64,000 nucleotides of DNA, taken from a virus. The position numbers were made by a program, and so were the translations under genes. Under the pieces are notes generated by a model. The model ran no database searches. It was given only the letters and a program-made list of their open reading frames with translations, and had not been told where the DNA came from. Position 1 is the stretch's first letter, and each line of letters opens with the position of its first letter. Below are positions 2,260-29,792 of the stretch, one piece after another. The DNA lies in IMG/VR virus record IMGVR_UViG_3300028844_007948, positions 1-64,000 of that record, one strand, 5' to 3'.

Positions 2260-2820
2260 TTAATCGAATGTATACCCGAATTTATCTATCTCCCATTGGG
2301 AGCAAGATGCTACAGCATCAATAAGCATGTCATCATACATATGTTGATATTCTCTATTAGGCCTAATAGATTCAAGAGTTCTATTTTCTATTTTTGGACT
2401 TTTCACTCCAAGTTTATCGCATATAACTTTCATGTCTTTTTCCACATGTTCTTGTCTAACAAAGTGGTCTATAATACATGTCGAACAAAAATGAAATTTG
2501 CAATATAAGGAAACTATAGGGCTTGAAATTTTACCAGATAAAACAAAATCTTTAAAATTTAATTGTTTTAATTCCTTGTGGTGAGTTTTTGCATGATAAT
2601 AATAAGATACGGCTCTGTCCCAAGGATTACGAACCGAACCTATTTTAAAATAAGAATCAAAATCATTCCCTATTTCTCTTTTCCATTCATATGCATTCCA
2701 ATGAGCAGAACTTTTTGGTATGATATAATCTGGGCAATGTTTTTTGAGTAACATCTTTATTGATCCTCCAGCACATTTCTGTGCATGAAGAAATAATATC
2801 TTCGAATCAGGTATATACAT
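2260..2820 (-). CDS. Sulfotransferase family 2-like protein
   Basis: 186 residues. PAPS-dependent sulfotransferases of this type carry a 5'-phosphosulfate loop near the N-terminus and a 3'-phosphate site with R-N-P-W. Here the first is LHAQKCAGGSIK (residues 11-22), with Gln where Pro is usual, and the second is VRNPWDRAVSYYYH (63-76). The product would transfer sulfate from PAPS to an acceptor, probably a sugar hydroxyl, but no acceptor can be read from the sequence. The protein is short for the family, so it is a minimal domain. No signal peptide, so it is cytoplasmic. It follows a second sulfotransferase-like gene by 7 bases and is probably co-transcribed. Confidence 0.8.
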   Translation of the reverse strand: MYIPDSKILFLHAQKCAGGSIKMLLKKHCPDYIIPKSSAHWNAYEWKREIGNDFDSYFKIGSVRNPWDRAVSYYYHAKTHHKELKQLNFKDFVLSGKISSPIVSLYCKFHFCSTCIIDHFVRQEHVEKDMKVICDKLGVKSPKIENRTLESIRPNREYQHMYDDMLIDAVASCSQWEIDKFGYTFD

Positions 2821-2827
2821 AAATGTA

Positions 2828-3532
2828 TTACTTAAAAGTATAATTCTTAATTTTTATAGTTTGATGGTCTTTAGCTGAAACCATATCAATCAATTCTTGA
2901 GTATAAAATTTATAATAATCAAGACCTAAAGAATTATAATTAAAATCATTATCATGTCTTAACTTTGATTGAGCATCAATGTTTAATTTACCACAAACAT
3001 AAGAAAAATCTTTCTCAAAGCTATCAAAATCCATCAAATAATCTAAAATAACACTTCCGTATTCATCTGTATAATAATCAGATTGAGGTTCATGATCGTA
3101 AACGATTTTTTTGAAAGCTGCTTCATATGACCCCCAATTATCAAAAAAGCCCGCGATATTCTCCATATTTCTCTCTGTCTGTATTCGCCAATCGAGAAAA
3201 TGATCTTCTGGTTTTCCCTCCGCCCTCATCGACTTTTGAGTTTTATTAAAAAATTGCTCTCTTCTGTGAGGGTCAAGAAAAGTTTCTAATCTTTGCACTC
3301 GCATACAAAAATTACTCCAGATTCTTTCCCAAGGATTTCTTACGACTGTAAACTTAAAGTATTCCGTCCACTCTTCATCAGAAAATATTTTTTTTGCTTG
3401 GAGTGCTGTTTTTTGACTGGCACTTGTGCCGTTTATAAGTTGACCCCTGAATAATTGAAATGTTTTTTTAATAGAAACAGATCCTGTCTTAGGGATGGAT
3501 ATGTAGATGAATTTAGTTTGAATAGATCTCAT
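2828..3532 (-). CDS. Sulfotransferase family 2-like protein
   Basis: 234 residues. The phosphosulfate-binding loop is ISIPKTGSVSIKK (residues 11-23) and the 3'-phosphate motif is VVRNPWERIWSNF (63-75). Both are in the expected order and spacing for PAPS-dependent sulfotransferases. The start codon at 3532 lies directly beside a 13-bp tandem repeat that may form its promoter. It is the first gene of a two-gene minus-strand unit with the sulfotransferase-like gene at 2260. The two proteins share only the cofactor motifs, so they may use different acceptors. Confidence 0.82.
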   Translation of the reverse strand: MRSIQTKFIYISIPKTGSVSIKKTFQLFRGQLINGTSASQKTALQAKKIFSDEEWTEYFKFTVVRNPWERIWSNFCMRVQRLETFLDPHRREQFFNKTQKSMRAEGKPEDHFLDWRIQTERNMENIAGFFDNWGSYEAAFKKIVYDHEPQSDYYTDEYGSVILDYLMDFDSFEKDFSYVCGKLNIDAQSKLRHDNDFNYNSLGLDYYKFYTQELIDMVSAKDHQTIKIKNYTFK

Positions 3533-4164: not shown

Positions 4165-5250
4165 ATGGGCAAATTAGAAATCATAAGCCAAGACCAAGAA
4201 GAAGTCGATGCACTTGGAAGTGTTTACTCTGAAGCTAAATTTGATAGATCAAGACTGGAAGGCACGCTAAGTTTTGCAAACAAAGAGTGGTTGACATTAC
4301 TGTCGGCTCAAGATACTGCAAGCGGACGCATTAAGGAGGGCACGGTGGGAATAGGGAGGGCTACGAGAAAATTAGAAAGGTTATCAAAAGGAGCATTAAA
4401 AAGGGTTAGAAATTTCGGGGAATTTGATTGCATCAAAATTGTAAGCTTTTTTTCTTATGGAGTTTATTGTCATAACATAATAGACACAATACCCGTATTA
4501 ATGGGAATGGATGAGATGGAAGATTGTGAATTAGTTTTAGTTAAATCAGAACCTTCTGTAATAAAGATGATCAAAGGTTTAAATATAAAATTTAAAAAAG
4601 TAAAATTCGTATCAGGAGCAAAAGATAATTATATAAAAGCAAGAAAAGTGATTCTTTATCATCATCATAATGCTCACACAAGAAGAAAGGAAGACATAAT
4701 AAAATTTAAAGAAAAAATCGATTACGAAACGATAAAACTAAGAGGAGAGCATCGAAAAAAATTAATATACTGCACTAGGAATGTAGGGGGGGGAGCCCTC
4801 CACGGGAGGCAAATTGAAGAAAAATGCGAGACAAGGATAATATCAATACTTAAAGCTCATGCAAGAGTAAATGATTTAGATTTTGTTTTGTTTACAGGAT
4901 GGAAAGATATAGAAAAGCAGGAGAGACTCTCTTTCCTTGAGCAAATGACTTTATTCAGCAAGGCAAAAATAGTAGTTGGGCCTCATGGTGGAGCAATGGT
5001 GAATATAATTGGATGCTTAGAATCTAACGATTGTTACATTGCAGAATTTAGCAGTGGCAAAATACCATGCCAAGGAAAAAGGTCTAAGCTTTTTGGTAAA
5101 AATTACAGTAAATTATTATCTTTTCACCCTGAAGAGATCATGAATTACTATTTGATACCTTTTTCGGAGGGGTCAGGACAAAGCAAGACTTTGATAGATT
5201 TGAAGCATTTAAGACAATTTCTCAAATATGCAAGAGATAGTAAGCCATAA
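4165..5250 (+). CDS. GT61-like (DUF563) glycosyltransferase
   Basis: 361 residues. The C-terminal half has the GT61/DUF563 pattern: an IYCTRN strand near residue 199, then GGGALHGRQIEE, LSFLEQMTLFSKAKIVVGPHGG (about 250-272) and a following hydrophobic helix. EQM-lf-A-iVvGpHGa is the hallmark of this family, which moves sugars such as xylose or GlcNAc onto glycans and proteins. No signal peptide or membrane anchor, so it would act in the host cytoplasm. It is a clear paralogue of the next gene and overlaps it by 23 bases, so the two are translationally linked. Donor and acceptor cannot be told. Confidence 0.78.
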   Translation: MGKLEIISQDQEEVDALGSVYSEAKFDRSRLEGTLSFANKEWLTLLSAQDTASGRIKEGTVGIGRATRKLERLSKGALKRVRNFGEFDCIKIVSFFSYGVYCHNIIDTIPVLMGMDEMEDCELVLVKSEPSVIKMIKGLNIKFKKVKFVSGAKDNYIKARKVILYHHHNAHTRRKEDIIKFKEKIDYETIKLRGEHRKKLIYCTRNVGGGALHGRQIEEKCETRIISILKAHARVNDLDFVLFTGWKDIEKQERLSFLEQMTLFSKAKIVVGPHGGAMVNIIGCLESNDCYIAEFSSGKIPCQGKRSKLFGKNYSKLLSFHPEEIMNYYLIPFSEGSGQSKTLIDLKHLRQFLKYARDSKP

Positions 5251-6268
5251 CCCAAAAGAATATACATCTATATTATACCCTCCTCCCCCACACCAGGAAA
5301 TAAAAGATTTTAGGGAATATGATAACGACGATAGATACAGATACTACGGCGTGGTAAACCAAAGCATAGACAGAAGGCAAAGGCTTTTTGTTACAGAATA
5401 TTGGGATGAGGAGTACAGTAAGTTGAAGTGGCAAGGTCCTGATGTACCAAAATATAATTCAGTATTAATATTGAACATGCCTTATGACAAATCTTATTGT
5501 CATAATATGCTAGATACTCTACCTCTAATATTTAATTTAGAACTTAAAAGTCATTATGATTTAATAATCATACCAAATACAAACTTTTTAGAAAAATTTT
5601 ATTTGGAATTAAATTTAGTCCTAAAAAAAACAATAATATTAAAAACTCATACGAGTTTTCAAGCTAAAAATGTTAGAACAGAAAACTACTGCATAAAAGC
5701 TAGAGATGTTAAAAACTTAATTCAGTTCAAAGGTTTTGTAGAAAAATACAAAAGTAAAACAAAAATAAAAGAATCAAAAAATCAAAAAAAATTCATATAT
5801 TGCACCAGGAATTCTGGAGGGGGAGCATTTAATAATAGAAGGGTGGACGATTTAAATGAAGGCGAATTGATATTATTATCAGAAAAATACTGCAAAGAAA
5901 AAGGTCTAGATTTTGTTTATTTTAACTGTAAGAATGCGAGTGGAACAAGAAACTTAAAGATAATTGAGCAGATGAGTCTTTTTCATGATGCAAAAATAGT
6001 AGTTGGGCCTCATGGCGGAGCGTTGTCAAACTTAATATTTCTTGATCCCAGAAATAAATGCAAAGTGGCAGAGTTTGTGTCTGGGGAAATGAGTAAAGGT
6101 GTTCATGGAGTCAAGCCTTATGTTAAAAATTACAATAGGCTTTACTGTAACATAATAGATCAGTTTTGTGATTATTATTTCATTCCATTTTCTAAAGGAT
6201 CAACAAATATGACGACCAAAATAGACCCTGAGGATTTTAAACTTTTTTTAAAAAAAATAGGAAATTAA
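5228..6268 (+). CDS. GT61-like (DUF563) glycosyltransferase, paralogue of the upstream gene
   Basis: 346 residues. It repeats the layout of the preceding gene: IYCTRNSGGGAFNNRRVDD, then IEQMSLFHDAKIVVGPHGGA, then YYFIPFSKGS near the C-terminus. The two are alignable through most of the C-terminal half and share a histidine-rich segment (SYCHNMLDTLP here, VYCHNIIDTIP in the paralogue). They probably arose by tandem duplication and have diverged in the N-terminal acceptor or donor half. Start at 5228, inside the end of the previous gene, is the longest open start and gives an ordinary length for the family. Confidence 0.78.
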   Translation: MQEIVSHNPKEYTSILYPPPPHQEIKDFREYDNDDRYRYYGVVNQSIDRRQRLFVTEYWDEEYSKLKWQGPDVPKYNSVLILNMPYDKSYCHNMLDTLPLIFNLELKSHYDLIIIPNTNFLEKFYLELNLVLKKTIILKTHTSFQAKNVRTENYCIKARDVKNLIQFKGFVEKYKSKTKIKESKNQKKFIYCTRNSGGGAFNNRRVDDLNEGELILLSEKYCKEKGLDFVYFNCKNASGTRNLKIIEQMSLFHDAKIVVGPHGGALSNLIFLDPRNKCKVAEFVSGEMSKGVHGVKPYVKNYNRLYCNIIDQFCDYYFIPFSKGSTNMTTKIDPEDFKLFLKKIGN

Positions 6269-6294
6269 AAAAAAATAAAAAATTTAAAAAAACA

Positions 6295-6304
6295 GTGTAA
6301 TGTA
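6295..6304 (+). promoter_or_regulatory. GTGTAAT-type promoter-like element
   Basis: GTGTAATGTA lies 28 bases before the ATG at 6323, after an A/T tract. It is the same element as at 32778, 39339 and 43261, and at 17742-17733 on the minus strand. Confidence 0.55.
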
Positions 6305-6322
6305 CAACATAGTCTAATTGCA

Positions 6323-7183: not shown

Positions 7184-7244
7184 CTAAAAAAACTTTAAAA
7201 ACAGTTTTATTGATTTATAATAAGATTTTACATATTCAATAAAA

Positions 7245-7781
7245 ATGATTAGTTATACTAAAAAATTCTTATTCCAGCACCACGGCAAGTGCGCTGGAAC
7301 TTCAGTCAAAAATGCAATTAAAAAGGCTTTGCCTGAACTTAGATCGGAGCTCAGGGAAACTGGCAAAGGGCATCTCTCATTGGATGATATGTATGATCTA
7401 ATTAGAGAGCGAGGAGAACTACCTAATAAGTATTTTAAGTTTACTATTGTAAGGAATCCCTGGGACAGACTCGTTTCCTGGTATTACCATTGGATTAAGA
7501 TCAATGGTTCAGACATGAAGTTTGAAGATTTTGCTATTCAAAGAAGAATGCCATATAAAAATCTAGAAAAAATGAATTTCATATTACAATTTGAGAATCT
7601 GAAAAAAGATTGGACCAAACTTTGTGCGAGGTTAGACATGCCAAGGATTGGACTTCCTCATATTCAGTATAATACAAATAGGCCGAAAAAAGCCTATCAA
7701 GAATATTATACTGATGAGATTAGAGATCTTGTAGCTACTAGACAAAAAGAGGTTATCGAAAAATTTGACTATAAGTTCTAA
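7245..7781 (+). CDS. Sulfotransferase family 2-like protein
   Basis: 178 residues. The phosphosulfate loop is FQHHGKCAGTSVKNA (residues 10-24), with Gly in place of the usual Pro before Lys, and the 3'-phosphate motif is IVRNPWDRLVSWYYHW (68-83). Spacing of about 50 residues between the two is normal. It is one of the smallest members here and may be close to the minimal fold. The gene ends in a 4-base convergent overlap with the minus-strand gene at 7778. Confidence 0.82.
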   Translation: MISYTKKFLFQHHGKCAGTSVKNAIKKALPELRSELRETGKGHLSLDDMYDLIRERGELPNKYFKFTIVRNPWDRLVSWYYHWIKINGSDMKFEDFAIQRRMPYKNLEKMNFILQFENLKKDWTKLCARLDMPRIGLPHIQYNTNRPKKAYQEYYTDEIRDLVATRQKEVIEKFDYKF

Positions 7782-8425
7782 AAAAAAGGCTCGTATATTA
7801 TACTGTCCCAAGGCAAGCATTTGACAATTAAGTCTCCGAGGGGAGTTATGCCTTTTACGAAATGTTTGCTATGAGCTAAATAGCATAAGTCTTGATCTAT
7901 ATTTTCATGTGAATAAATATTTAAATCATACCCCTTTTCCTCACATTGATTAGATAAGCTTTTTACTATTTTAAAACTATCCTCTACAGCTTTCTCGCTG
8001 TAGGAATACTTACCATTAATTTCATTATCCCCAAAGTGCAGAGCGGTCACAGCTGTTACTTTATTAATAGAAAGCTCTGAAATATCTATATGAGAAAAAA
8101 AATCTGAATAAAAATATATAGATTTCTTTTTGGCGAATTCATAGTCCAGCGAGTCCATTATGTCTCCTAATCGAAGTTGTATTACTAACTCGTCATGATC
8201 TGGGGTTTTATATTTTTTTTCTTCAGCATGCTTTCTTAAAATATTTTTAAAAAGTGAATAATCCAACTCTTGCTCTTTTTTTGATAAATATTCAAAGAGT
8301 ATTGTATCCTTATACTTTGGGTTATTCAAAATTTCGGACCTGTCTTTCCGCCACCTTATACCCCAGCCAAAGAATAAGTCGTTCACTCTGTAGTGCTTGT
8401 TAGATTTAAGTTTTTTTATTTTCAT
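7778..8425 (-). CDS. Possible glycosyltransferase (fucosyltransferase-like)
   Basis: 215 residues. VIQLRLGDIMD near residue 86 resembles the H/xRxGD motif of GT11-type and O-fucosyltransferase-like enzymes, which contacts the GDP-sugar phosphate. The C-terminal AHSKHFVKGITPLGDLIVKC resembles the late loop in which these enzymes detect a misplaced or stored sequence, but the match is weak. No membrane segment. Its position between two sulfotransferase-like genes supports a role in glycan chemistry. Otherwise it should be treated as unknown. Confidence 0.5.
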   Translation of the reverse strand: MKIKKLKSNKHYRVNDLFFGWGIRWRKDRSEILNNPKYKDTILFEYLSKKEQELDYSLFKNILRKHAEEKKYKTPDHDELVIQLRLGDIMDSLDYEFAKKKSIYFYSDFFSHIDISELSINKVTAVTALHFGDNEINGKYSYSEKAVEDSFKIVKSLSNQCEEKGYDLNIYSHENIDQDLCYLAHSKHFVKGITPLGDLIVKCLPWDSIIYEPFF

Positions 8426-8430
8426 TTTGC

Positions 8431-8457
8431 TTGACAGTTCTTACTGTACACTATAAA
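8431..8457 (+). promoter_or_regulatory. Possible sigma70-like promoter for the small lipoprotein
   Basis: TTGACA at 8431-8436 and TATAAA at 8452-8457 with a 15-base spacer, which is shorter than the usual 17. An inverted repeat ACAGT-TCTT-ACTGT lies between them. Read on the other strand, the same stretch gives GTGTACAGT upstream of the minus gene that starts at 8425. Confidence 0.3.
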
Positions 8458-8465
8458 TTAAAGAT

Positions 8466-8642
8466 ATGAGAATTTCAATAGTATTGCTTTTTATATTAGC
8501 CTTATCCTCTTGCAAAAATAAAAAAAATTATAAATGGGAAGATAAATTGCACAGAACTCAATATCTTGACAGATGGGGGGAATTAGAAAGGATGAGGGAT
8601 CTAGAGAGATACCCCTACAGAAAATCAGAATTATTTTTTTAG
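8466..8642 (+). CDS. Small lipoprotein (58 aa)
   Basis: The reading frame starts at ATG 8466 and stops at TAG 8640-8642. It begins MRISIVLLFILALSSCKNKK, a classic lipoprotein signal with LSSC as the lipobox and Cys16 as the lipidation site. The mature part is 43 residues, very charged and helical (WGELERMRDLERYP). It could be an outer-membrane immunity or lysis component such as an Rz1-like outer spanin, but it lacks the Pro-rich character of many Rz1 proteins. It ends in the last codon of the convergent sulfotransferase gene. Confidence 0.6.
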   Translation: MRISIVLLFILALSSCKNKKNYKWEDKLHRTQYLDRWGELERMRDLERYPYRKSELFF

Positions 8643-9241
8643 ATAAAATCGTAATTGTATTTATCTATGTCTACACTGTAGATTTTCGACACTATGTCAA
8701 CAGTTTTAACATTATAAAAACTTTTATATTTAGAATATACGCTCACATCAAAACTTCTTAAATTTGGATTGTCTCCAAAAATATTAGACAGAAGTAGTGA
8801 GTCTTTTTTTAAGTTTTCTATTTTGCCGACATAGTCGATATCACGATCTAAAAAATAAGATTGATCTAAAAAATGCAATTGCATTAAATTAGCTCTTTCA
8901 AGACCGCCTTCTTTTACGAAACTATCAAAAGAAGAATACTTCATTAAATAGTTCTCCCTAGATTTCAAATCGTATTCGCTGTTATTACCTCCTTTGAGTA
9001 GATAATTGTATGCACTAACAACTCTAGACCAAGGGTTCCTTACAAATGAAAAGCAAAAAAAAGAGCTTAAAATTTTATCTGGAAAATCAGAGCATTTCGA
9101 ATGAGAGTCTCCAGAAAACCCGCCTACAACTCTTTTAACAAAATTACCCCCACATTTGGGAACGTGTATGAATAAAAGTTTTTTTTTGAAGTTTATATTC
9201 TTAGAGTAAATCTTTTTAAGTTCTATCTCATATGGGTTCAT
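8639..9241 (-). CDS. Sulfotransferase family 2-like protein
   Basis: 200 residues. LLFIHVPKCGGNFVKRVV (residues 22-39) is the best match in this window to the canonical phosphosulfate loop, and SFVRNPWSRVVSAYNYL (65-81) is the 3'-phosphate motif. The start codon overlaps the stop of the large terminase gene (ATGA-type overlap), so it is the last gene of the long minus-strand operon. That puts a sulfotransferase under the same transcript as packaging genes. Confidence 0.85.
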   Translation of the reverse strand: MNPYEIELKKIYSKNINFKKKLLFIHVPKCGGNFVKRVVGGFSGDSHSKCSDFPDKILSSFFCFSFVRNPWSRVVSAYNYLLKGGNNSEYDLKSRENYLMKYSSFDSFVKEGGLERANLMQLHFLDQSYFLDRDIDYVGKIENLKKDSLLLSNIFGDNPNLRSFDVSVYSKYKSFYNVKTVDIVSKIYSVDIDKYNYDFI

Positions 9242-18215: not shown

Positions 18216-20849
18216 ATGGGACATTTAAAGAAACAGGAAGATCTTTGTATTTTCTTCGTTATAACCGAAAGGGAAATAGATGACGGAGAGTTTGAATCTT
18301 GCATATTCAAGTATTTAGATAATATCCCATCGAGGAATATAATGTCGGATTTTTATGTTTTTATAAATAAACTCACATCAAGATCTAAAGTTGAAAACAT
18401 AGGCAAACTAGTTGAGACAAATAGATTCGTAAGATCTATAACTTTTATAAACTTAGACCTATCTCAAGAATTGGACTGCTTTTGGTACCCATGGTCTTTC
18501 AGCCAGAAAATAAAACCAAAAAATAAACCCGAACTAGGCTATACATCAGGTGCAAATATACTATTTTACATCGCAATAGAAGCTATGTTTGAAACCAAGT
18601 ATAAAAACTTTCTAATGCTAGAATGTGATACGAAGCCCTTACGTAGAAATTGGTTTGATGTTGCTTATAGATATTGCGAAAACAATAAATTCGATATAGC
18701 TGGTAGTACATATAAAGGAATAGCAGAGTGGCATAGTGACTCTGAATACAAAGACCACATAAATGGGGTTGCAATTTATGCAAATAGCGCGAGCAATAAA
18801 TCTTTAATCAAAGCTAGTAAAAAAATCGTAGCAAGAGAGTGTCAAAAAGTTGACTATTTAAACTTTGATGTAGCAAATTTAATAGCGAAAGAAGAGAGTG
18901 AAAGAAAAAAACCTTTCTTGTTAAAAGACACTGATTTTATTGTAAATATAAGCGATCCACTAGATCAACATCAGACAGAAAAAGAAATTCTTGAAAAATA
19001 TCCAAGAGCCACAATAGTTCACCAAAAACAAAAAAAGACCCCTCCAATTCTAGACATCTCTATTTTTGAAAAAAATTATAACGACAGCCTTCCAGTATTT
19101 TTCTGCATGCCAAAATGTGCTTCGGAGTATGTGCTTGGGGCTAATATTGAATTATTAAAAGTATCAGCAAAAAAAGATAGAAAAAAACCTTTAGTCCTAA
19201 AACTGCACACAAAATCAAATTCTGGATTAACATTTTATTGTAAATGCGATTTAGATTTCTTTTTGCTACCTAGGAGCCTATTTAAGGATGTAAACGGAAT
19301 CAGCTATACGACAGAAATAAAAACATTCAATGACTTAGTTTTAAATAACTATATAGATATATTTTCTATGGCGATAGATTTCAGACATTCGCCTGCAGAT
19401 ATAGATGAAGCAGCATTTTACCTGCTTAAAAGTATATTTGAAACTATAGAAAAAAGTCCAGAAATATACACTTTCCTTCGGCATCCTTTTGAGATATTAA
19501 AATCTTCTTTTCCTACTTGGGAGAATGTTAACTTCAGAGGGGTAGAGCCAGACTCCCAGGAGAGAAGGAGGAGATTTAATTTTTTCTCGACTTTACACCC
19601 AAATATGTTTATGCAGAAAAGGCTTCTTGGTGCAAATTATGATGGATCTATCGAACAAAAAAATCATCTTTATGCTATACTTGAAAATTTTTATATTTAT
19701 GATGTGTCTGCTATAGAAGATGTTTTAAGCTCTTTATTTAAGCATTTCTGCGGTGTATCCATGCCCGAAATAGAACCAATAAAAGACATAAACCCAACAA
19801 AAAATATTTACAATATAGACCTTGGGGTTTTTATGAAAGCTAAGGTGGCTAAAGACATTTGGGCTCAGAAATCTCAAGAAGATATACAAATTTACAAAGA
19901 GTTTGCAATTCAAAGATTTGAATCAAATGTAGGAGAAATTATGAAGAAAAATGCAGAATTTAGTTTTAGCCAGTCAAACATACCAGTATTTTTCCATATA
20001 CCAAAAAATGCTGGGACATTCATTATAGCAACAATGAATAAGTTTTTCGTAAGGGTTCTCAAGGTGACCCCAGAAGATATGAACTTCCAAAGATTAAGTA
20101 TAAAAACTAAAAGCGGCCATGAAATTAAAGCTTTTGTGTATTTTACAGATGAAAATTGGAAGTCTGATAAAAATATAAAAGTTTTACCAAATTATGGGCC
20201 AAAGGTAAGAGCAAGACTGACAGACTTAAAAACATTAGAAAAATACCTTTCCATGAAGCAGATTAAATTATTAACGATGATAATCGAGCCTGCTGGAGAA
20301 ATTTTAGACTTAAGGAATTCTTTTTATGAAGTATGGAATATATTAGAGAGCTGCGATAAAACCCCAGTTAACTTCTCCATAGTAAGAAATTCTTACGATA
20401 GAGCATCCTCTATATATAATTATCTTAAATCAGATGAGTCTATGCACGAAAGAACCCATGGGGCTTTTGATCACTTAAAAACATTTCCAGATTATATAAA
20501 ATCAAACATGCTTGAAGATAGTTGGACTATACGAGCTGTAACTGGAGCTCCAAATAACATACCTCTTAATAAAAAATGGAAAGATCAAGCTCTTGCCTTT
20601 TTTGATAAACATAAATTTATAATTAGAGATATTAAAGAATCACAAAGCTTACTTCAACAGATTCTTACATATTGTTTTGAAGAAAACCTTTCCGACCTAG
20701 ATACTAGAAACATAAACGACAACAGGAGTAAGTATAAAACAAAAAAAGTTAAATTCGCAGAATTATCAATGGAAGAGCGCGATATTTTTAACGATAGGTC
20801 AAAGTGGGATATAGACTTATATCAAGAAATTTTAGAAAAAAAATATTGA
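18216..20849 (+). CDS. Three-domain glycosyltransferase-sulfotransferase-sulfotransferase fusion
   Basis: 877 residues. Residues 1-255 look like a GT-A glycosyltransferase with FLMLECDTKPLRRNW near 130-144 as the metal/nucleotide-sugar region. A first sulfotransferase-like domain begins with PVFFCMPKCASEYVLG near 293 and has TFLRHPFEILKSSF near 418 in the place of the RNP motif. A second begins with PVFFHIPKNAGTFII near 590 and has FSIVRNSYDRASSIYNYL near 720. Both lack the usual Trp, and the first has His for Asn. The enzyme could add a sugar and sulfate it in one pass. One domain may be inactive. It is followed by two more glycosyltransferase-like genes. Confidence 0.72.
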   Translation: MGHLKKQEDLCIFFVITEREIDDGEFESCIFKYLDNIPSRNIMSDFYVFINKLTSRSKVENIGKLVETNRFVRSITFINLDLSQELDCFWYPWSFSQKIKPKNKPELGYTSGANILFYIAIEAMFETKYKNFLMLECDTKPLRRNWFDVAYRYCENNKFDIAGSTYKGIAEWHSDSEYKDHINGVAIYANSASNKSLIKASKKIVARECQKVDYLNFDVANLIAKEESERKKPFLLKDTDFIVNISDPLDQHQTEKEILEKYPRATIVHQKQKKTPPILDISIFEKNYNDSLPVFFCMPKCASEYVLGANIELLKVSAKKDRKKPLVLKLHTKSNSGLTFYCKCDLDFFLLPRSLFKDVNGISYTTEIKTFNDLVLNNYIDIFSMAIDFRHSPADIDEAAFYLLKSIFETIEKSPEIYTFLRHPFEILKSSFPTWENVNFRGVEPDSQERRRRFNFFSTLHPNMFMQKRLLGANYDGSIEQKNHLYAILENFYIYDVSAIEDVLSSLFKHFCGVSMPEIEPIKDINPTKNIYNIDLGVFMKAKVAKDIWAQKSQEDIQIYKEFAIQRFESNVGEIMKKNAEFSFSQSNIPVFFHIPKNAGTFIIATMNKFFVRVLKVTPEDMNFQRLSIKTKSGHEIKAFVYFTDENWKSDKNIKVLPNYGPKVRARLTDLKTLEKYLSMKQIKLLTMIIEPAGEILDLRNSFYEVWNILESCDKTPVNFSIVRNSYDRASSIYNYLKSDESMHERTHGAFDHLKTFPDYIKSNMLEDSWTIRAVTGAPNNIPLNKKWKDQALAFFDKHKFIIRDIKESQSLLQQILTYCFEENLSDLDTRNINDNRSKYKTKKVKFAELSMEERDIFNDRSKWDIDLYQEILEKKY

Positions 20850-20882: not shown

Positions 20883-21545
20883 ATGAAAGTAATACATTAT
20901 TATCCGCCAATATATTCAATGTTTAAGCAAATGGCTGAAAGGAATTTTGAAAATTCCAGTTTTATATTGGAATCGAGAGAGCTAGACGATTTTAAGAAAA
21001 AGAAGCTAGAGAAGGTCGAGCTAAATGGGGGATACAAAGTAAAAAAGCTGTGCGAAGATATAGAAGCTAATCTAGGAAATAATATTTTGTATCTTGATCC
21101 AGCTGTATATGTAAACCCAACTAAAGTTAGAGATCTATATAAATACCTTCTTAATTTTAAAGATGTTGATTTGTGTTTGCCGAAGCATACTAAAAGAAGC
21201 GGATATTCGCCCTGTGTAATGAAAATAAAATGTACAAAGAAAATGTTGGCCTTTTTTGAGCACATCAGAGATAGGGTAAAGAAAAGCAAGCAGTACACTG
21301 AAGAGCCAGTAATCAATAATGTAATAAAAGAATGGAAGGAAAGGATATCCTTTGAAGAGTTAAATGCTAAAATATTATGCACCCCTTTTATATCTAGCGA
21401 GGCTGTTAGGCAGAGTTATTACCTATGGAATGTCTGGACAAAAGCGGAAGGTCTGACTTCCTCTGAGGTTTATGACAATAAAGTTAAAATAGTATTTGAT
21501 CATAGATTTATTAACAGAGAAGACTACAACTACTTTAAGTTGTAA
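20883..21545 (+). CDS. Possible GT-A-fold glycosyltransferase
   Basis: 220 residues. NNILYLDPAVYVNP (residues 66-79) sits where GT-A enzymes carry the DxD metal site. Here it reads DPA, so the second Asp is missing. The C-terminal half has helical and aromatic stretches ending in FDHRFINREDYNYF. It follows the three-domain fusion by 33 bases and abuts the next glycosyltransferase-like gene, so context supports glycan work. It could be an inactive or a metal-independent member, or a protein with a similar fold only. Confidence 0.45.
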   Translation: MKVIHYYPPIYSMFKQMAERNFENSSFILESRELDDFKKKKLEKVELNGGYKVKKLCEDIEANLGNNILYLDPAVYVNPTKVRDLYKYLLNFKDVDLCLPKHTKRSGYSPCVMKIKCTKKMLAFFEHIRDRVKKSKQYTEEPVINNVIKEWKERISFEELNAKILCTPFISSEAVRQSYYLWNVWTKAEGLTSSEVYDNKVKIVFDHRFINREDYNYFKL

Positions 21546-22334
21546 ATGAAAATTTATACTTTTTTTGAGCCCGTAGAGGACTCTCATGATAAACAGACCC
21601 AGGAAGGCTTACTAAAATCATGGAAAGATAATTGGATTGCTCATGGGTGGGAACCAGTAGTAATTAACAATGACCATGCAAAAAGTCATCATATGTACGA
21701 TGAAATGGTCGAAAAAATGAGAAATTTCCACGTGTTATTTACGGGGAATAAAATTAAGCTATATGGAATTTACTGTTATACGAGATGGCTAGCATATTCC
21801 GCCTTAGAATCTGAAGAGCAAATTTTTACTTGCGACTACGATTTAGTAAATAATGGACTGAAACCTGGAGCTATAAAACTCAAAGAGGGAATCAATCTCT
21901 ATTCAGATTTTTGCCCATGTTTTGTTTCGGGAAAGTCTAAAGATTTTGAAAGATTTTCTAGGTTTATGATTTCCATAAGCGAACTTAGGTTCAACAGATT
22001 AAAAGGCAATATAAGAAACCTTTCTGGTACAAGGTCTGATATCTATCATGATCAAGATGTATTAGTTAATAATTTGTCTAATAAAAATTCTAGATATGGA
22101 ATAGAGTTATGCTCTGATTTAAATTTTAATCTATCTACTAAATATGTCGGACAAATGGCGGCAAAACAAACTTTCGATTCGTATATGTTTAAAAAACCAA
22201 TTCCCCAAACTTTACATTTCTCAAGAAGTAGCATGTTGAGATTCAGAAAAGATGCGGGATTAAATGAAAAATATAAAGATATTGACAACGATACATTAAG
22301 ATTAAAAATTGTACAAGAAAAGTTTGGTAGCTAA
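21546..22334 (+). CDS. Possible GT-A-fold glycosyltransferase
   Basis: 262 residues. The N-terminus MKIYTFFEPV and a segment SWKDNWIAHGWEPVVIN resemble the first Rossmann unit of sugar transferases. EEQIFTCDYDLVNNG (residues 91-104) holds a DxD-like Asp97-Tyr-Asp99. A later YHDQDVLVNNL is similar to the acceptor loop with a second Asp pair. The start codon follows the previous stop with no gap, which implies coupled translation. No membrane segment. Confidence 0.55.
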   Translation: MKIYTFFEPVEDSHDKQTQEGLLKSWKDNWIAHGWEPVVINNDHAKSHHMYDEMVEKMRNFHVLFTGNKIKLYGIYCYTRWLAYSALESEEQIFTCDYDLVNNGLKPGAIKLKEGINLYSDFCPCFVSGKSKDFERFSRFMISISELRFNRLKGNIRNLSGTRSDIYHDQDVLVNNLSNKNSRYGIELCSDLNFNLSTKYVGQMAAKQTFDSYMFKKPIPQTLHFSRSSMLRFRKDAGLNEKYKDIDNDTLRLKIVQEKFGS

Positions 22335-22366
22335 AAAAAACACAACAAAACCCCGTTTAGTTGTGT
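22333..22366 (-). terminator. Terminator-like hairpin facing the minus strand
   Basis: ACACAAC (22340-22346) pairs with GTTGTGT (22360-22366). Inside, AAAC pairs with GTTT around a CCC loop, with one A-A mismatch between the two stems. On the minus strand it is followed by a run of T (22340-22333), giving a Rho-independent terminator shape. No minus-strand gene precedes it, so it may stop antisense transcription or act as a plus-strand RNA structure. Confidence 0.5.
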
Positions 22367-22381
22367 ATATCTATTATATAT

Positions 22382-24916
22382 ATGGCAGAAACAGCACCTT
22401 ACTCACGAATAATAATTAAAACAGTAGATAATACTGATTATATATCAATCCCATTTGGTAAGCCAGAATATTTTGGTTCGTCGAAAAAGTTTAACTTCAG
22501 GATAACCTGGGGAGATGGAAAAATAACCAATTTAAAAAACAATTACAATTACAAGGATGTATCTTGGGATAGAAACTACGATAGTAGCGGCAGACCTCAA
22601 AACCCAGCCCCTCAAAGCGATACCGCTTTAACTATAACACATAAATACGAAACAGCAGGTCAATACGATATAGAAGTCAGAGGTGGCTTTGATAACAGTA
22701 TGGATGATCAAGGAAACTCTCTTAATAACAATGATAACCAATTAACTTTGAAGCTATGTTTTGCCAAGTCATCAGATAGAATGTCATGCAGAGGAACGCC
22801 AGAGGTAATAGAAGAAATAAATGGGATAGGCGGAGCTCACAGAGGGGAAATATATGTACATGGACAAGGAGATTTTGAAGATTTTATCAACTTAAAAGAG
22901 ATTAATTGTGGTATTAGATTATTAACCTCAGCAAATCCTAAATCAAATTTACTTTACGATGGAGGGGCTGGAAAAGTCGCTTTTATAAATACTTTTAAAA
23001 ATTGTGAAAAAATAGGATTAGGAAAGAAAAACAGAATAAGAACGTTACCCCAAGGAGATGCCAAAATAATAGACATGGAGGGATGTTTTGACAATTGTGG
23101 GTACAATGGATTTTTACCATGGGACACATCTTTAGTTACGAACTGGAAAAGAGCATTCAGGAAGAGTAAAAACCACGCGAAAATCGCCTTTGACTTTTCT
23201 GCCGCTGAAAATTTAGATTATGCATTAGAAGACTCTTATGCAGGTAGAGCTTATAGATTGCCAGTTACCGTAAACAAAGGCGGTTCAGGAATTGTTGATG
23301 CAAAATGGAAATTTGTACTTGCAAAACAAACAGATAACATTGCAATATGGTCTAATGATGGGTCCACGTTACCAGGAGATCCTGGAGGAAAACAGCCACA
23401 GGGAAGCATCGTCGGGAAGACGAACGATAGCGGTAATTTCAATGTTAACTTAGGTGATATTAATTTAATGGAGTGCATAGATCCTGATTCATATTTAGAC
23501 CAAGAGACCGAAAATGATTTTATTAATTTAAGATTGCACTCTTGGTGCTCAACGGATGGTGGGTCGTCTTTTCAAAAAATTTCGAATAAAAATTTAAATT
23601 TAAATGTAATAGGGACTCTAAAATTAGAGTCTGATTTTCTATTTGGAGATTTGCGGAATGTAGTTTCTATGGTTGGGACTTTTAAAGACCACAAGAAGTT
23701 TGATGCGAATTTATTGAGAAGATGTTTTACATCAAATGTGGTTTACAAACTAGAAGATATGGAAGCGTGTTTTGAGGGGGTAGATTTCCTTAAACTAAGA
23801 AATTCTAACGATAACGGTACTAGATTTAGATTAAGATTGACTAATGCAAAACCAATATCAATTAAATCATATATCAGGAACTCAAAAAATGCATTTGATA
23901 TAAGATACATGGATGGATCTAGGATAACAAATATATCGCATTTCGTTCAAAATACAGATTACAACCAAACAATAAGTTTTGACATGCAAAAAGTAACAGA
24001 TACTTCTTATGCATTTGCTGGTTGTACTGGAAATCCATACATAAGAACTCTATGGCTTCTAAGAAGTGGAGATGGGAAAAATTTTGCAAATATAAATTGC
24101 GAAGGAATGTTTGAAGGAAGTTCAAACTGGGATACAGATTTACCATGGAAACACTTAAAGCCAACATCTACAGAGAGAATGTTTAATAATTGCTCTAGTG
24201 ATTTTAAATCTTCCATGGGTTTTGGCACTTTTGATAATTGTACTACAATACGAGCTATGTTCAGAAACTCAGGCGTGAAAGCGATAGGAAACTTAGCGGC
24301 ACTTAGTTTAAAGAATGTGGTAGATGCAAGTTATGCATTCAAAGGAACTCAAAATGATGTATCTGTAAATAGATGGTTTTCTAACCCAAATATAGAACAT
24401 AAGATTGAAAATATAGATGGTATGTTCGAAGGATCAGTAAATACAACAATAACGAACTTATGGGCTGAAGTTATAAGTAAAACAGTGAAATCGGCAAGAG
24501 CTGTTTTCAAGAACAATCGAGCTGTACCTTTAGACAATATAGTTAAAACATTTAGAAATACATCACAAGACAATGTTGTAGAACAGATAGACGAATTTTT
24601 CAGAGGCATCTTGCTAAAAACAGGGGAATTCAACACTGATCAAAGAAGATTTATTAGACAATGGCATGTAAACAATAAATGCGAAAATCAATTTAATGTT
24701 CTCAAAGCCGTGTCCTTTGGAGGGCCTGCAACATATTCAAGCTGTAGATATAAAAATTATGAATCTGACGATCAAATTGTTATAGAGCCAGAATATGAAG
24801 AAGTAAACCTATATCAAAAATCAGAAGTAACATACGATCACATTTGTGAAGACCAATTAATAGATGAAGTGTCAATTCCAGAAGGATTAGATACAGTATT
24901 CATGGCAATATACTAA
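22382..24916 (+). CDS. Large BspA/DUF285-like surface or fibre protein with PKD-like N-terminus
   Basis: 844 residues from ATG 22382. I chose this over a TTG at 22361, which lies inside a hairpin and a GTGTAT element. FNFRITWGDGKITNLKNN with ITHKYETAGQYDIEVRGG (to about residue 105) is a PKD-like beta-sandwich. The remainder has degenerate DUF285 (BspA-type) repeats, such as MEGCFDNCGYNGFLPWDTS, MFEGSSNWDTDLPW and IDGMFEGSV. DUF285 repeats occur in bacterial surface proteins that bind ligands. In a phage they suggest a fibre or head decoration that touches the host. No signal peptide. It lies with a trypsin-like protease and a second protein of the same type, so the three may form one complex. 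Confidence 0.65.
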   Translation: MAETAPYSRIIIKTVDNTDYISIPFGKPEYFGSSKKFNFRITWGDGKITNLKNNYNYKDVSWDRNYDSSGRPQNPAPQSDTALTITHKYETAGQYDIEVRGGFDNSMDDQGNSLNNNDNQLTLKLCFAKSSDRMSCRGTPEVIEEINGIGGAHRGEIYVHGQGDFEDFINLKEINCGIRLLTSANPKSNLLYDGGAGKVAFINTFKNCEKIGLGKKNRIRTLPQGDAKIIDMEGCFDNCGYNGFLPWDTSLVTNWKRAFRKSKNHAKIAFDFSAAENLDYALEDSYAGRAYRLPVTVNKGGSGIVDAKWKFVLAKQTDNIAIWSNDGSTLPGDPGGKQPQGSIVGKTNDSGNFNVNLGDINLMECIDPDSYLDQETENDFINLRLHSWCSTDGGSSFQKISNKNLNLNVIGTLKLESDFLFGDLRNVVSMVGTFKDHKKFDANLLRRCFTSNVVYKLEDMEACFEGVDFLKLRNSNDNGTRFRLRLTNAKPISIKSYIRNSKNAFDIRYMDGSRITNISHFVQNTDYNQTISFDMQKVTDTSYAFAGCTGNPYIRTLWLLRSGDGKNFANINCEGMFEGSSNWDTDLPWKHLKPTSTERMFNNCSSDFKSSMGFGTFDNCTTIRAMFRNSGVKAIGNLAALSLKNVVDASYAFKGTQNDVSVNRWFSNPNIEHKIENIDGMFEGSVNTTITNLWAEVISKTVKSARAVFKNNRAVPLDNIVKTFRNTSQDNVVEQIDEFFRGILLKTGEFNTDQRRFIRQWHVNNKCENQFNVLKAVSFGGPATYSSCRYKNYESDDQIVIEPEYEEVNLYQKSEVTYDHICEDQLIDEVSIPEGLDTVFMAIY

Positions 24917-24918: not shown

Positions 24919-27231
24919 ATGAGCGATAAAGAAAAAATACTAGAAGAAGCGGAAAGACTTCTTGAAAATTTTAAAATAACATCAATCTCTTTTGGTCCGA
25001 TGGTAAAACCTGGGACAAAAGATTTAGTTGAAGCGGTAAAAGTAGGAGTTAAGGAAATGCTTGAAGATTTGCCGAACTATTTAGAAATAGAAGGTCAAAG
25101 ATATGATGTCTATCAGTCATGCGAAAGAGTAATCCTTTGTGACGAAACTGAATTATCTGTTCCTACTAATAAGGCCGAAGGAGAGAAATTGCAGTCTTGG
25201 TATAAAGTCGGAACGCAAACTGCAGATGGAAGTATATTAAGTTCAGTAATCCACGAAAATGATTGTGGAGTAGCCTCCCCGCTAGAAAACAAAAAAAAGA
25301 TAAGACCTTTAAAGAGTGGAGCTGCAATAAGTGCGGACAAAAAAAGCATCGGAACGTTAGGGTGTTTCGCTATCGATAATGAAGATGGAAAACTTGTAGC
25401 CTTAACCAATGCTCATGTAGTAAATGGAGGGGTAATACCTTTGTTAACATCAAAACAAGAAGGAATAGGAAGGGACTACAGTATACTAGGAAAAAAAGTA
25501 TATCAAGGCGATTTTACTAAAGATGACGGAACAGTTTACGAAACATCTTATTCAAAAATTACAGAAGATGATGTTGTAGGAATAGTAAAAAGATATCTTC
25601 CTGCTGGAATCGCATACACCTTTCAGGGAAAATATTGGAAGCAACATATAAAAGAAGATCAATTTCAAATTGACGCTGCATTAATAGCGGTAAAAAAAGG
25701 TACAGTAGATGCTGAGTCATGGAAACTAGTAGGAGTGGACAATGCTGATTTCAATGACGGTGGACCTCCTACATTTTGTGGTGAAGTAGAATTTCGTGAA
25801 TGGCTAAGAGATAGCTATTGGTCGGGGTATACCCAGGATGTGGGCGGAGGAGTAGATGAATTTAATACTCCTAATGAGCCTGACATGATCATTTCTGGAG
25901 CTGCAACGGGAGCAAAAGACGGAACAAAAACTGGACCCGATGATTACAGGTGGAGAATATCTGGACCCCTTAAGTTCCAGGAAATGGAAATAGATGGAGG
26001 TGGAAAGCTTGTGTCTATAAATGCCAGAGATAATGTAGCCTTAGTAAGACAACAAAACAAAGATAGATATAGGCCGAATGCAGATGATACCTTGTTCGTC
26101 GATACTGTACCTAGAGGAGATTGGAATTGTGCAGATAATATACTGCCTGGAGATTCTGGGTCTGTTGTATATTCAAAAATAAACGGATCATGGAAAGCGG
26201 TTTGCTTGGTTTACGCAACCAAATCTAGTATAGGCGGAACCCAACAAGATCCTGTTACAATATATACAGAAGGTCTTGTGATTCCTTTTTATATAGTTGC
26301 AAAACTCATGAATATATCAGAATGGGATGGAATAGTAAATGATTCTATATTCTCAGAAAATAGCGAGAGCGGTTTCAGGGTTGACACCAGACATGTAAAG
26401 GGGTTAAGCGGCATATACAAACATAGAGTCGGCGGTAAATCATATTTTCAGGCTGGTTTAGTTCCAAGAGAGCCAAGGCCATACCCCCCAATGAAAGAAT
26501 CCTTCCAAGCCGAAGAAGAACTTAAACCGATTCCACAGTCTTCGCTAATAGAGCAATTTGTTAAATATGACAGTGTTACTGTTGACACTCCTGCAGGCAG
26601 ATCGTGGAATGATAACGAAAAAGGCTACTATTCAGACCCTGTATGGTTTAAGATTACAAATCTTAATATTTCTGAATCAAATATACCTGCTATAATCAAA
26701 GGAAGTGGGCTGGATTATGGAGTATTATCGCTAGACTTAGCTATAGTACATAACGACCAAATAAATAATTTAGAAGATATTTACTTTTCTCCAGAGAGTA
26801 GAAAAACAGCGATTTATGGATCAGTCCCCATATTAGAAATTTTTGGAAACAGTATAAAGTCTAGTTTAAGCGGAGGATTAGATAATATACTGCCAAGATT
26901 AAAAAGTTTATTAGATGGAGGACAATCAGATGCTGATAATGGATTAAGATCTCCGAACCTTTATAGATTAAGATTTAAAAATGGAGCTAGAACAGGAAAA
27001 CTTCAAAGCTCTTCAAGCATCAATATAACCAACACTACATGCTATAAAGAATATGTGCCATGGGAATTCGGTTCTGATAAAAAATTAAAAGGTGCAGCTA
27101 AGGCCGAACCTGCCGCACTTGAAGATTGGGTGGACCGAGGAGCAAGTATAGTTTTAGTACTTTCTTATGTAGGAAAAGATTTGAACTATGTTGTGGATCA
27201 AGTAACTGTGACATCTTTAAAGAATAAATAA
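24919..27231 (+). CDS. Large phage protein with trypsin-like serine protease domain
   Basis: 770 residues. The triad of a chymotrypsin fold is visible: His166 in ALTNAHVVNGG, Asp252 in FQIDAALIAV and Ser413 in ILPGDSGSVVY. Residues 1-130 precede the protease domain. After Ser413 comes about 350 residues of beta-rich sequence without a known motif. No signal peptide. It starts two bases after the previous gene and is followed 20 bases later by another fibre-like gene. It could be a virion protease that matures the neighbouring fibres or clears host surface proteins. The size is far above that of a bare trypsin domain. Confidence 0.72.
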   Translation: MSDKEKILEEAERLLENFKITSISFGPMVKPGTKDLVEAVKVGVKEMLEDLPNYLEIEGQRYDVYQSCERVILCDETELSVPTNKAEGEKLQSWYKVGTQTADGSILSSVIHENDCGVASPLENKKKIRPLKSGAAISADKKSIGTLGCFAIDNEDGKLVALTNAHVVNGGVIPLLTSKQEGIGRDYSILGKKVYQGDFTKDDGTVYETSYSKITEDDVVGIVKRYLPAGIAYTFQGKYWKQHIKEDQFQIDAALIAVKKGTVDAESWKLVGVDNADFNDGGPPTFCGEVEFREWLRDSYWSGYTQDVGGGVDEFNTPNEPDMIISGAATGAKDGTKTGPDDYRWRISGPLKFQEMEIDGGGKLVSINARDNVALVRQQNKDRYRPNADDTLFVDTVPRGDWNCADNILPGDSGSVVYSKINGSWKAVCLVYATKSSIGGTQQDPVTIYTEGLVIPFYIVAKLMNISEWDGIVNDSIFSENSESGFRVDTRHVKGLSGIYKHRVGGKSYFQAGLVPREPRPYPPMKESFQAEEELKPIPQSSLIEQFVKYDSVTVDTPAGRSWNDNEKGYYSDPVWFKITNLNISESNIPAIIKGSGLDYGVLSLDLAIVHNDQINNLEDIYFSPESRKTAIYGSVPILEIFGNSIKSSLSGGLDNILPRLKSLLDGGQSDADNGLRSPNLYRLRFKNGARTGKLQSSSSINITNTTCYKEYVPWEFGSDKKLKGAAKAEPAALEDWVDRGASIVLVLSYVGKDLNYVVDQVTVTSLKNK

Positions 27232-27251: not shown

Positions 27252-29792
27252 ATGGCAACTACAATAGGAACGTTTCCCCAAGCATCGAGCAATACTAACA
27301 ATATAGGCGGCGATGAAAAAGTAATGGTGTTAACCATTAACACATCTGGATACGAAGACACCCATCAATGGCAACCAGGAAAACACAACGTTACAGTTGA
27401 ACACCCATTTGAGTATGGAACAGCGGGCCAGTGGGAGGGTGATAAATACTCAAACACCATAGTAATACCAATCTGGAGAGTTGGAGCAGCAGGAGTAACA
27501 ATAAATTGGGGAGATGGTCACTCAACAAATTTACCTGCAAATTGGGAGTGGACTGGAAGCAGTAATCATAATAATTTTTTTACAATTTGGAGAAATGCTG
27601 CAACAGGTGCAAACAATACTCAACAAATTATAGATGGTGGATATGAAAATTTAGTCCACAAATATTCAACTTCTGGCCAACATACAATTACAATAACTGG
27701 AGACGTTGAAAGATTTGGGGCATGGTTTGAACTCCACAATGAAGAACAGTTTCAACACTGGGGCAGTATTGGACCTGGAAGTTACAATGGAATTTATACG
27801 CGAAATTTATATAAGTATTCATGTTGCTTTTCATCAAGAGTAACTTCTATAGGGGAATTTCCTTTCTGGAATGATTGCGAATGGATATATCCTTTTATAT
27901 TATCAAATATCACGAGCTGGAATAAAAATTCAATTTTTAAAGGCTTTAAATGTATAGGTGGATTCGTTTCTCATATTGAAGACAGAGATAATGCTGGCAC
28001 TTATAAGTCTGCTGGTTTTGATGCAAGCTTTACATCTCAAGCTCCTGGCCCTTTTGATAATTGGACAGCGAGTAGTGATTATACTGAGCAAGTTTCAAAC
28101 GGACTTAAGCTTAGGACATGGTCTGGAGGTAGTTATGAATACTCTTATCTCGTCAAGTCTTTAGATTATGCACTTAGAGGTAGAAATAATTTCGCTTCAG
28201 AAGTTTATGACACCAATGGGCCGAATTTTCAGAATATAAGCACAGACCAGTGTGGGAGAATAAAATTTAATGGAGATTTATACTTAAAAAATTTGAGTAT
28301 ACCATCTGATGGATTTTATGGGAGGCTCGTCAGGGAAGTAAGTAACAATGATAAAAAAATTCAAATTGGAAAATTAGGCTTTACTCAATTTTACGAGTCT
28401 GATGATGCTATTCCTTATTCATGGATGAAATACGGTATAGATAATGCTTTATTCTCATTTGACGACGATTCTAGTTTAAATTTATCAGCGGGAGTTGTGC
28501 CGACTTGGCCTATCTTAGAAGCATTTAAGTCGGAGTTAGGATCAGTTAAATCAACAGAAGGCATAGATTCTTTTGATGAATTTTTCAAAGATGAAGTGGT
28601 TACTCAGGGAGATATAAATGCTTTAGCTGAGCTTTGTAAATTCAATCCTAACGCAAGTTTTAAAAGTATGTTTGAGAACGCTACATTTAGAACTGATATA
28701 GATATAGAGTCATGGGTTTTAAATGGTTCAGATTTAACAAACATGTTTAAGGGGGCTACGTTTGAAGCAGGAATAAAACTCCCCAAAATAGAAAATCCAG
28801 CGTCATTAGTAAGCTTTTTCGAGAATGCCACTGTAGCTGGAACGATAGAAGGTTTAGAAGGGTTAGTTTTAAGCGAAGCGACTAAAATAGAAAACATATT
28901 TAAAAATACAACTCTTTCTGGGGGTGGAATATCTAACATAGGAAACTGGAAAGGTATTGGTGAAGGCCAACTATTCAATCTTATTATAGAGCATCTGGAC
29001 AATATTAAAGATGGAAATCCCGACAATAAACTAGAGAGTTTTAGTACAGTGACAAATGATATTGTGTTACCAGGAGAATTAGATTTTATTTCAGAAATAA
29101 AAGATTGGTATAGAATAATGCCAAAACAGAGTGGAGATAATAAGAATGCGAATGGGGGTTATAGTTATAACCCAGCAAATATTAGTAAAATATATGAAGC
29201 CTATGGTTCGGGTGGAGCTAGAAATAGTTCAAATAATATAATCCCTAATTTTACTGAAGCTGGAAAATACGCATTTATTGTTGATACACAACTTTCTAAT
29301 AACTATACTACTCCTACTAGTGTGCAGGATGACAAAGATAGCCTTTTTGCTGGGTCTTACCCCTCTGTTTATGATTTAGCTCTATATAACACAGATGAAG
29401 AGTTGGATTTTAATAAAGACGAATCACTTTTAGTAAACGTAGATATTAATGATGCAAAAAAAATATCTAAATACTCGGCGGACGATGTAATTTCATACAG
29501 CTCATATCTTGCAAAAAATGTAGTATCAGACAGTTTTACAGCAGGAACTATAGCAAAGGACATAGGAAGAAGATCTTATATTGCTGTCATTGATGTAGAT
29601 AAATCTTTATATACAAAAACTAAGCTTTACTTGAGATTCAAAAGCGAAAATACCTGGTCATCAGGTGGGGTAGAAAATGCACAGGTTGATCTTGGTGAAG
29701 ATGTAAGAGTACAACTATACAATCCTCAGTGGAATGGGGCTTATAACGATTTACTCACCGCCCAAAAAGAAGCTGAAGATTCAGGAGTTTAA
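27252..29792 (+). CDS. Second PKD/DUF285-like surface or fibre protein
   Basis: 846 residues. AAGVTINWGDGHSTNLPANW and LVHKYSTSGQHTITITGD repeat the PKD-like N-terminus of the 22382 protein. The middle and later parts hold DUF285-like units (ASFKSMFENATF, LTNMFKGATF, LVSFFENATV, IENIFKNTTL). It is a paralogue with similar length but diverged sequence, which fits host-range evolution by duplication. No membrane segment or signal. A collar, head or tail-fibre location is possible; there is no direct sign of which. Confidence 0.65.
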   Translation: MATTIGTFPQASSNTNNIGGDEKVMVLTINTSGYEDTHQWQPGKHNVTVEHPFEYGTAGQWEGDKYSNTIVIPIWRVGAAGVTINWGDGHSTNLPANWEWTGSSNHNNFFTIWRNAATGANNTQQIIDGGYENLVHKYSTSGQHTITITGDVERFGAWFELHNEEQFQHWGSIGPGSYNGIYTRNLYKYSCCFSSRVTSIGEFPFWNDCEWIYPFILSNITSWNKNSIFKGFKCIGGFVSHIEDRDNAGTYKSAGFDASFTSQAPGPFDNWTASSDYTEQVSNGLKLRTWSGGSYEYSYLVKSLDYALRGRNNFASEVYDTNGPNFQNISTDQCGRIKFNGDLYLKNLSIPSDGFYGRLVREVSNNDKKIQIGKLGFTQFYESDDAIPYSWMKYGIDNALFSFDDDSSLNLSAGVVPTWPILEAFKSELGSVKSTEGIDSFDEFFKDEVVTQGDINALAELCKFNPNASFKSMFENATFRTDIDIESWVLNGSDLTNMFKGATFEAGIKLPKIENPASLVSFFENATVAGTIEGLEGLVLSEATKIENIFKNTTLSGGGISNIGNWKGIGEGQLFNLIIEHLDNIKDGNPDNKLESFSTVTNDIVLPGELDFISEIKDWYRIMPKQSGDNKNANGGYSYNPANISKIYEAYGSGGARNSSNNIIPNFTEAGKYAFIVDTQLSNNYTTPTSVQDDKDSLFAGSYPSVYDLALYNTDEELDFNKDESLLVNVDINDAKKISKYSADDVISYSSYLAKNVVSDSFTAGTIAKDIGRRSYIAVIDVDKSLYTKTKLYLRFKSENTWSSGGVENAQVDLGEDVRVQLYNPQWNGAYNDLLTAQKEAEDSGV

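Follow-up and report, generated by a model that had tools for sequence, protein, structure and literature searches.

Introduction

Sugar-modifying and sulfating activities are joined in one polypeptide chain in N-deacetylase/N-sulfotransferase (NDST) and in other multi-domain sulfotransferases. Among phages, remodelling of the host envelope is a common task of glycosyltransferases (GTs). Sulfotransferases (STs) are also carried by marine phage genomes, and a paper of 2023 states that their function in the phage remains unclear (PMC10580990).

Here, we analyse a gene of an uncultured phage located in a window of 64,000 nucleotides taken from a virus record of 163,424 bases. A preliminary description of the window had read this gene as a fusion of a GT-A-like domain with two sulfotransferase-like domains, had proposed that sugar transfer and sulfation are paired in its product, and had suspected that one of the sulfotransferase domains is inactive or repurposed.

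Results

The fusion gene and its orthologs

The fusion ORF (P0001, positions 18216-20849, + strand) starts with ATG and encodes 877 residues with no internal stop, just as had been described, and the strand opposite to it is full of stops. It opens a closely spaced series of + strand genes, in which the genes of GTa, GTb, a DUF285/WGDG protein, a protein of 770 aa and another WGDG protein follow at successive gaps of 33, 0, 26, 2 and 20 bp. The phage core block (from the terminase to a PhoH-like gene) lies on the - strand, and the fusion ORF is transcribed away from it. The core block also holds a subtilase gene (15249-16457, - strand), the product of which has a long repeat of Pro, Lys and Glu and a hydrophobic segment at its C-terminus, and elsewhere in the window positions 43288-54018 (+) form one single ORF of 3576 aa.

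No usable match came from single-sequence searches with the fusion against Pfam, PHROGs, NCBIfam, PADLOC, GenBank phages or the sequences of the PDB. A match in the large phage LR756500 (E 0.1) fell inside a small Sulfotransfer_2 gene and was rejected as a relative of the whole fusion. The sole match in direct scans with P0001 was a second contig of the same phage (57 kb; 100% identical DNA over the 6,365 bp compared), which carries the last 121 residues of the fusion. Since direct searches gave almost nothing, orthologs were reached via relatives of the terminase, followed by a search of the related records with P0001. Full-length orthologs, alignable end to end, were found in two other phage lineages at 56% and 31% identity. 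Downstream of the former (record G002, 876 aa), the gene order of the window is retained, with GTa, GTb, the WGDG protein and the gene after it; the latter (819 aa), found in G003 and G004, two contigs near-identical at the locus, occupies the equivalent position, with the core block on one side and other enzyme genes on the other. Because intact orthologs exist, we rejected a gene-call artefact as an explanation of the 877-aa ORF.

Beside the 819-aa ortholog, three consecutive genes were observed (L096:10459-12740), two of them matching a 2OG-Fe(II) oxygenase model, followed by Fringe-like and FUT8-like GTs. This gene set suggests hydroxylation before glycosylation.

The N-terminal domain

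The N domain (residues 1-285; 18216..19070, + strand) is a predicted GT-A glycosyltransferase. The motif LECDTKP noted earlier near residue 130 was found at residues 135-141, and the motif residues comprise E136-x-D138, H181-x-x-G184, Y188, D218 and H269. The ExD, HxxG and late His are common to the N domains of the window fusion and its orthologs, and across 24 rows (three N domains and 21 rows of other GTs) the invariant positions are G112, N114, E136, D138, W146, G168, G184, Y188, D218 and H269. When a DxD-type metal motif was looked for, E136-x-D138 and the C-terminal H269 were found, invariant over the 24 rows; the putative metal motif is thus ExD, not DxD.

An AF2 model of the N domain together with the middle domain, built from the 24-row alignment, had a mean pLDDT of 70, with N mostly at 70-90. 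Foldseek against the PDB gave 180 matches at E<=1e-3, and the best 50 of the 180 were all GT-A-type glycosyltransferases, XXYLT1, LARGE1, glycogenin, ABO and COLGALT1 among them, with XXYLT1 as the top match (E down to 1e-7, probability 1.00). Against BFVD, mainly viral GTs were retrieved. A profile of stand-alone GTs of the N type matched the N domain with 27.8 bits (E 9e-6), compared with at most 5.8 bits for shuffled N, and no significant match to any named GT family was found in Pfam, NCBIfam or PHROG. The predicted fold and the invariant ExD bear out the GT-A reading of the preliminary description.

The sulfotransferase domains and their active sites

The middle domain M (residues 286-588; 19071..19979, + strand) and the C-terminal domain C (residues 589-877; 19980..20846, + strand) belong to one family, which we name "long sulfotransferases" (LST). 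When a profile was built from the stand-alone LSTs of other phages, with all rows of fusion proteins left out, it matched M with 59.2 bits (E 2.5e-15) and C with 183.7 bits (E 3e-53), and about 1000 shuffles of each domain gave at most 9.2 bits. M and C can be aligned end to end (blastp 8e-4; hhalign of M against the C family 96.5% over 262 columns); hhalign gave 98.7% for M against the stand-alone LSTs and 97.3% for C against small phage Sulfotransfer_2 proteins. Neither P0001 nor its domains matched PF03567 at the gathering score, and one long ST (L112) reached 17.8 bits, below the cut-off of 22. A full-length AF2 model of the fusion had low confidence (pLDDT 54); Foldseek with it retrieved heparan sulfate 6-O-sulfotransferase (probability 0.99) and 2-O-sulfotransferase (0.93) with weak E-values. 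The middle domain, whose fold the preliminary description had marked for checking, is thus placed in the ST family by its sequence, and the backing for its fold comes from this low-confidence full-length model only. Taken together with the GT-A prediction for N, the LST scores bear out the proposed order of GT-A, ST and ST.

In a tree of the LSTs, whose deep order is unresolved and which has several long branches, the three M domains grouped together (100/99), as did the C domains of the window and G002 (100/100); therefore, the separation of the two ST domains predates the split of the window and G002 lineages. Identity between these two fusions is about 61% for each of N and C vs. 47% for M; M thus evolves faster.

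The invariants of the LST family (alignment A10, 17 rows) include PxF-H-x-PK-x-x-G, the 3'-phosphate Arg and Ser, and the Glu of S-x-H-E-x-T-H. C of the window and C of G002 keep every invariant of the intact family. The family residues of the window C are PKNAGT 596-601, R724, S732, H744-E745, T747-H748, W770 and N836: the PKxxGT 5'-phosphosulfate loop is present, with its P, K and G invariant in A10, and so are the 3'-phosphate Arg and the Ser eight residues later, which are invariant over the 17 rows. Most small STs of this study have a His between the P-loop and the 3'-phosphate motif (e.g., GDSH), and no conserved His or Glu was found between them in A10; because of this, the naming of H744/E745 as catalytic residues is a guess.

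Both P-loops and the two variant motifs, LRHPFEI (421-427, in M) and VRNSYDR (723-729, in C), lie where they had been reported. VRNSYDR, which had been read as a sign of a divergent domain, keeps R724 and S732, and other residues replace the Pro of VRNPYDR in relatives with intact sites (L122 has V, L126 has A), so this change looks harmless. The suspicion of an inactive domain probably holds for M instead. M keeps R422 and S430, and its phosphate loop reads PKCASE, PKCATE and PKSGSE in the three orthologs, i.e., a Glu is present and the G-T is lost; the SxHExTH loop is absent from M in 3/3 orthologs. The Glu should oppose PAPS binding. Because of this Glu and the loss of SxHExTH in all three orthologs, M is probably a pseudo-sulfotransferase. 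Since the chain would then hold a single intact ST, the fusion would have the architecture GT / pseudo-ST / ST and would not be a double sulfation enzyme.

Degeneration is seen elsewhere as well. C of the 819-aa ortholog is degenerate too, although an intact LST is encoded separately in the same genome, next to the terminase. Among LST domains that follow a GT in a fused chain, SxHExTH has been lost in the M group of the window, L153, L156 and L157. L156 and L157 group with a separate gene, L155, which has also lost SxHExTH; therefore, there were perhaps three independent losses in all.

The downstream operon and other genes of this phage

The preliminary description had pointed to two GT-like genes directly after the fusion. 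They do start 33 and 0 bp downstream, respectively. GTa (220 aa; 20883..21545, + strand) has no match in Pfam, PHROG or NCBIfam, and its conservation is limited to one close relative (62%, same order, G002/L089). GTb (262 aa; 21546..22334, + strand) likewise lacks a family match; its family recurs beside or fused to the N-type GT and LST in other phages (profile matches in L113, L117, L131, L138, L151, L153, L155, L156, L158 and L169) and is often a member of the GT/LST cassette described below. Both are probable glycosyltransferases, as read by eye and from their gene company.

The next gene (22361..24916, + strand) encodes a DUF285 (BspA-like)/PKD-like protein with WGDG (PF03382, 1.3e-7), which is 38% identical and in the same order in G002. 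It is a candidate fibre or adhesin and a possible acceptor. It is followed by the 770-aa protein (24919..27231, +; 42% identical in G002, without a family) and by the second WGDG protein of the operon (27252..29792, +), which has the WGDG motif and a homolog in G002.

Apart from the fusion, positions 2260-9241 of the window hold a cluster of four small Sulfotransfer_2 genes and two GT61 genes, which makes five sulfotransferase-type genes in this one phage. The small stand-alone STs lie at 2260..2820 (-; PF03567, 7e-8), 2828..3532 (-; 6e-10), 7245..7781 (+; 3e-13) and 8639..9241 (-; 6e-11); the last is beside the terminase gene and is kept in G002-G004 and G038. The GT61 genes lie at 4165..5250 (+; PF04577, 2.7e-13), a homolog of which is directly upstream of the fusion in G002, and at 5228..6268 (+; 1.5e-13). 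When 45 records were scanned with the Sulfotransfer_2 model, the model matched nothing beyond the record that holds the window, the closely related G002, G003, G004 and G038, and LR756500; the 53-78 kb records from more distant terminase relatives, all of them fragments, gave none.

Further along the record (G000:84438-103339, L005), there is a nucleotide-sugar/glycan cluster with NeuB, a NeuA-like (CMP-sugar synthase-like) protein, GDP-mannose dehydratase (GMD), a GDP-fucose-synthase-like protein, epimerases, a DegT aminotransferase, a UDP-sugar dehydrogenase, an FkbM methyltransferase and a GT2; therefore, the phage may supply unusual sugars. At G000:134677-135480 (L007:10677-11480), a short APS-kinase-like domain is joined to a nucleotidyltransferase-like domain (GRYQPFHIGH), for which a role of PAPS or NAD type is possible. 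As a phage source of PAPS this gene at 134.7 kb was not supported, its kinase-like domain being short and joined to the nucleotidyltransferase-like one.

A recurring GT/LST cassette in other phages

Sequence collections were scanned with short conserved peptide patterns, so the family sizes obtained, 26 loci with the C family (mostly separate genes of about 270-310 aa in other uncultured phages) and 33 loci with the stand-alone GTs, are lower bounds biased to close relatives. Clustering at 90% identity over both scans yielded 25 GT lineages. In 12 of these (four found via the LST scan and eight by GT-only ascertainment), an LST is the next gene downstream or part of the same chain. Where the two genes are adjacent, their spacing ranges from a 25 nt overlap to a 194 nt gap, with overlaps often of 19-25 nt. 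The other 13/25 lineages, some of them short fragments, have no LST within about 3 kb, and therefore the GT can work without an LST.

The fusions vary in order: GT-LST (L157), GT-LST-GTb (L156), GT-GTb followed by LST (L155, L158) and GT followed by GTb-LST (L153). In L118, L121, L127 and L128, the LST is joined to another GT-like domain; these proteins, at about 7980-9710, have 573-576 aa and a C-terminal domain with HFRLGDQ, which has no Pfam match and is possibly fucosyltransferase-like. In L169, a phage-like contig in a Bacteroidetes MAG, the genes of the GT, the LST and GTb follow one another with overlapping ends, and tail-fibre-like genes flank them on both sides. This was the only LST match in 84,980 genomes (one pattern used), and its filing in this MAG is possibly a host hint or a binning error. 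One LST (L113) and one GT (L138) used as queries gave no match in 50,697 GenBank phages. Small Sulfotransfer_2 genes are close to many LSTs, and in L113, L169, L115 and L142 the neighbouring genes include matches to PHROGs of tail or tail-fibre type.

The repeated fusion and adjacency of the two families provide strong evidence that GT and LST act on the same product, and the partnership of sugar transfer and sulfation suggested earlier for a single chain is well supported by the 12 of 25 lineages.

Discussion

We propose, with a probability of roughly 0.6, that the fusion is an enzyme of a phage module making a sulfated glycan, for which a co-encoded fibre or adhesin protein is the most likely acceptor. 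The N domain, with its predicted GT-A fold, would add a sugar from a nucleotide sugar to the acceptor. The C domain, an LST with intact sites, would move sulfate from PAPS onto the added sugar or its neighbour. M would be an ST copy without PAPS binding, which probably holds the acceptor or positions N and C. GTb, and probably GTa, would extend the glycan. Judging from gene order, the acceptor would most likely be a phage fibre or adhesin of the same operon; the reasons are the tail and tail-fibre PHROG neighbours and the conserved WGDG operon. A wider proposal is tentative: the cassette of several uncultured-phage lineages (GT-A, LST, a second GT and often a small ST, in varying fusions) might decorate their own tail fibres with sulfated glycans, partly from phage-made sugars, and in G003/G004 the 2OG-Fe(II) oxygenases may first hydroxylate the attachment sites in the protein.

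The same chemistry could instead be directed at the host, with LPS, capsule or a lipid-linked glycan being remodelled, e.g., to block superinfection or help release. This is what phage GTs commonly do; the large nucleotide-sugar gene set in the genome would fit it, and PHROG places the phage sulfotransferase family 3347 under moron/host takeover. However, the cassette lies in the tail-fibre region of several phages and shares an operon with genes of fibre-like proteins in two, and no membrane-anchored partner for O-antigen modification was recognised in a non-exhaustive search, so we consider a host target rather unlikely.

It is less probable still that both ST domains are catalytically dead, which would leave a GT carrying two accessory glycan- or nucleotide-binding domains. 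The degenerate M, the degenerate C of the most distant ortholog and the tendency of LSTs fused behind a GT to lose SxHExTH would agree with this, whereas the retention of all family invariants in C of the window and of G002, and the conservation of C at the level of N, argue for an active C domain. Highly improbable is DNA or nucleotide hypermodification, in which the GT would glycosylate phage DNA bases and the ST sulfate them: base modification by glycosyltransferases and sulfotransferases in phages is mentioned in a metagenome paper by way of the earlier reports it cites (PMC10829341), but the genes here accompany those of fibres and not those of replication, the GT finds its best fold matches among GT-A enzymes acting on proteins or glycans, and no gene recognised next to the cassette was a partner for base modification. 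A defence function was set aside, with no match in PADLOC.

If the sulfated glycan is indeed placed on the virion, these phages would carry self-made sulfated sugars, which would bear on host recognition. The GT/LST cassette ties phage sulfotransferases to glycan building through family adjacency and fusion, and offers a defined enzyme, a partner set and a candidate acceptor. In addition, an unnamed sulfotransferase family is added, together with a repeated route from an active enzyme to a pseudo-enzyme after fusion.

Comparison with known systems

Among the open papers searched for phage virion glycosylation and phage galactose-3-O-sulfotransferase, none on a GT/LST module was found. The folds are known; the families, the architecture and the recurring cassette appear, from the sequences compared, to be new. 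With XXYLT1, LARGE1, glycogenin and COLGALT1, the N domain has in common the predicted fold, the ExD motif and the late His, yet its identity to GT-A enzymes such as XXYLT1 and LARGE1 in structural alignments is 7-16%, and it matches no Pfam family.

The C domain shares the PKxxGT loop and the Arg/Ser 3'-phosphate motif with Sulfotransfer_2 (PF03567), the solved relatives of which are the heparan sulfate 2-O/6-O sulfotransferases. The LSTs differ from this family in their length, which is greater by about 80-100 residues, in scoring below the Pfam threshold or falling outside it, in lacking a conserved His between the two motifs and in having their own SxHExTHG loop; nearly all of those seen come from uncultured phages. 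PHROG 3347, 'Galactose-3-O-sulfotransferase', is matched by a small sulfotransferase beside the cassette (1.6e-13) and weakly by one LST (4e-7), whereas the fusion and most LSTs are outside its coverage. NDST resembles the predicted fusion in joining sugar-modifying and sulfating activities in one chain, but there it is a deacetylase, not a glycosyltransferase, that is joined, and to one sulfotransferase domain.
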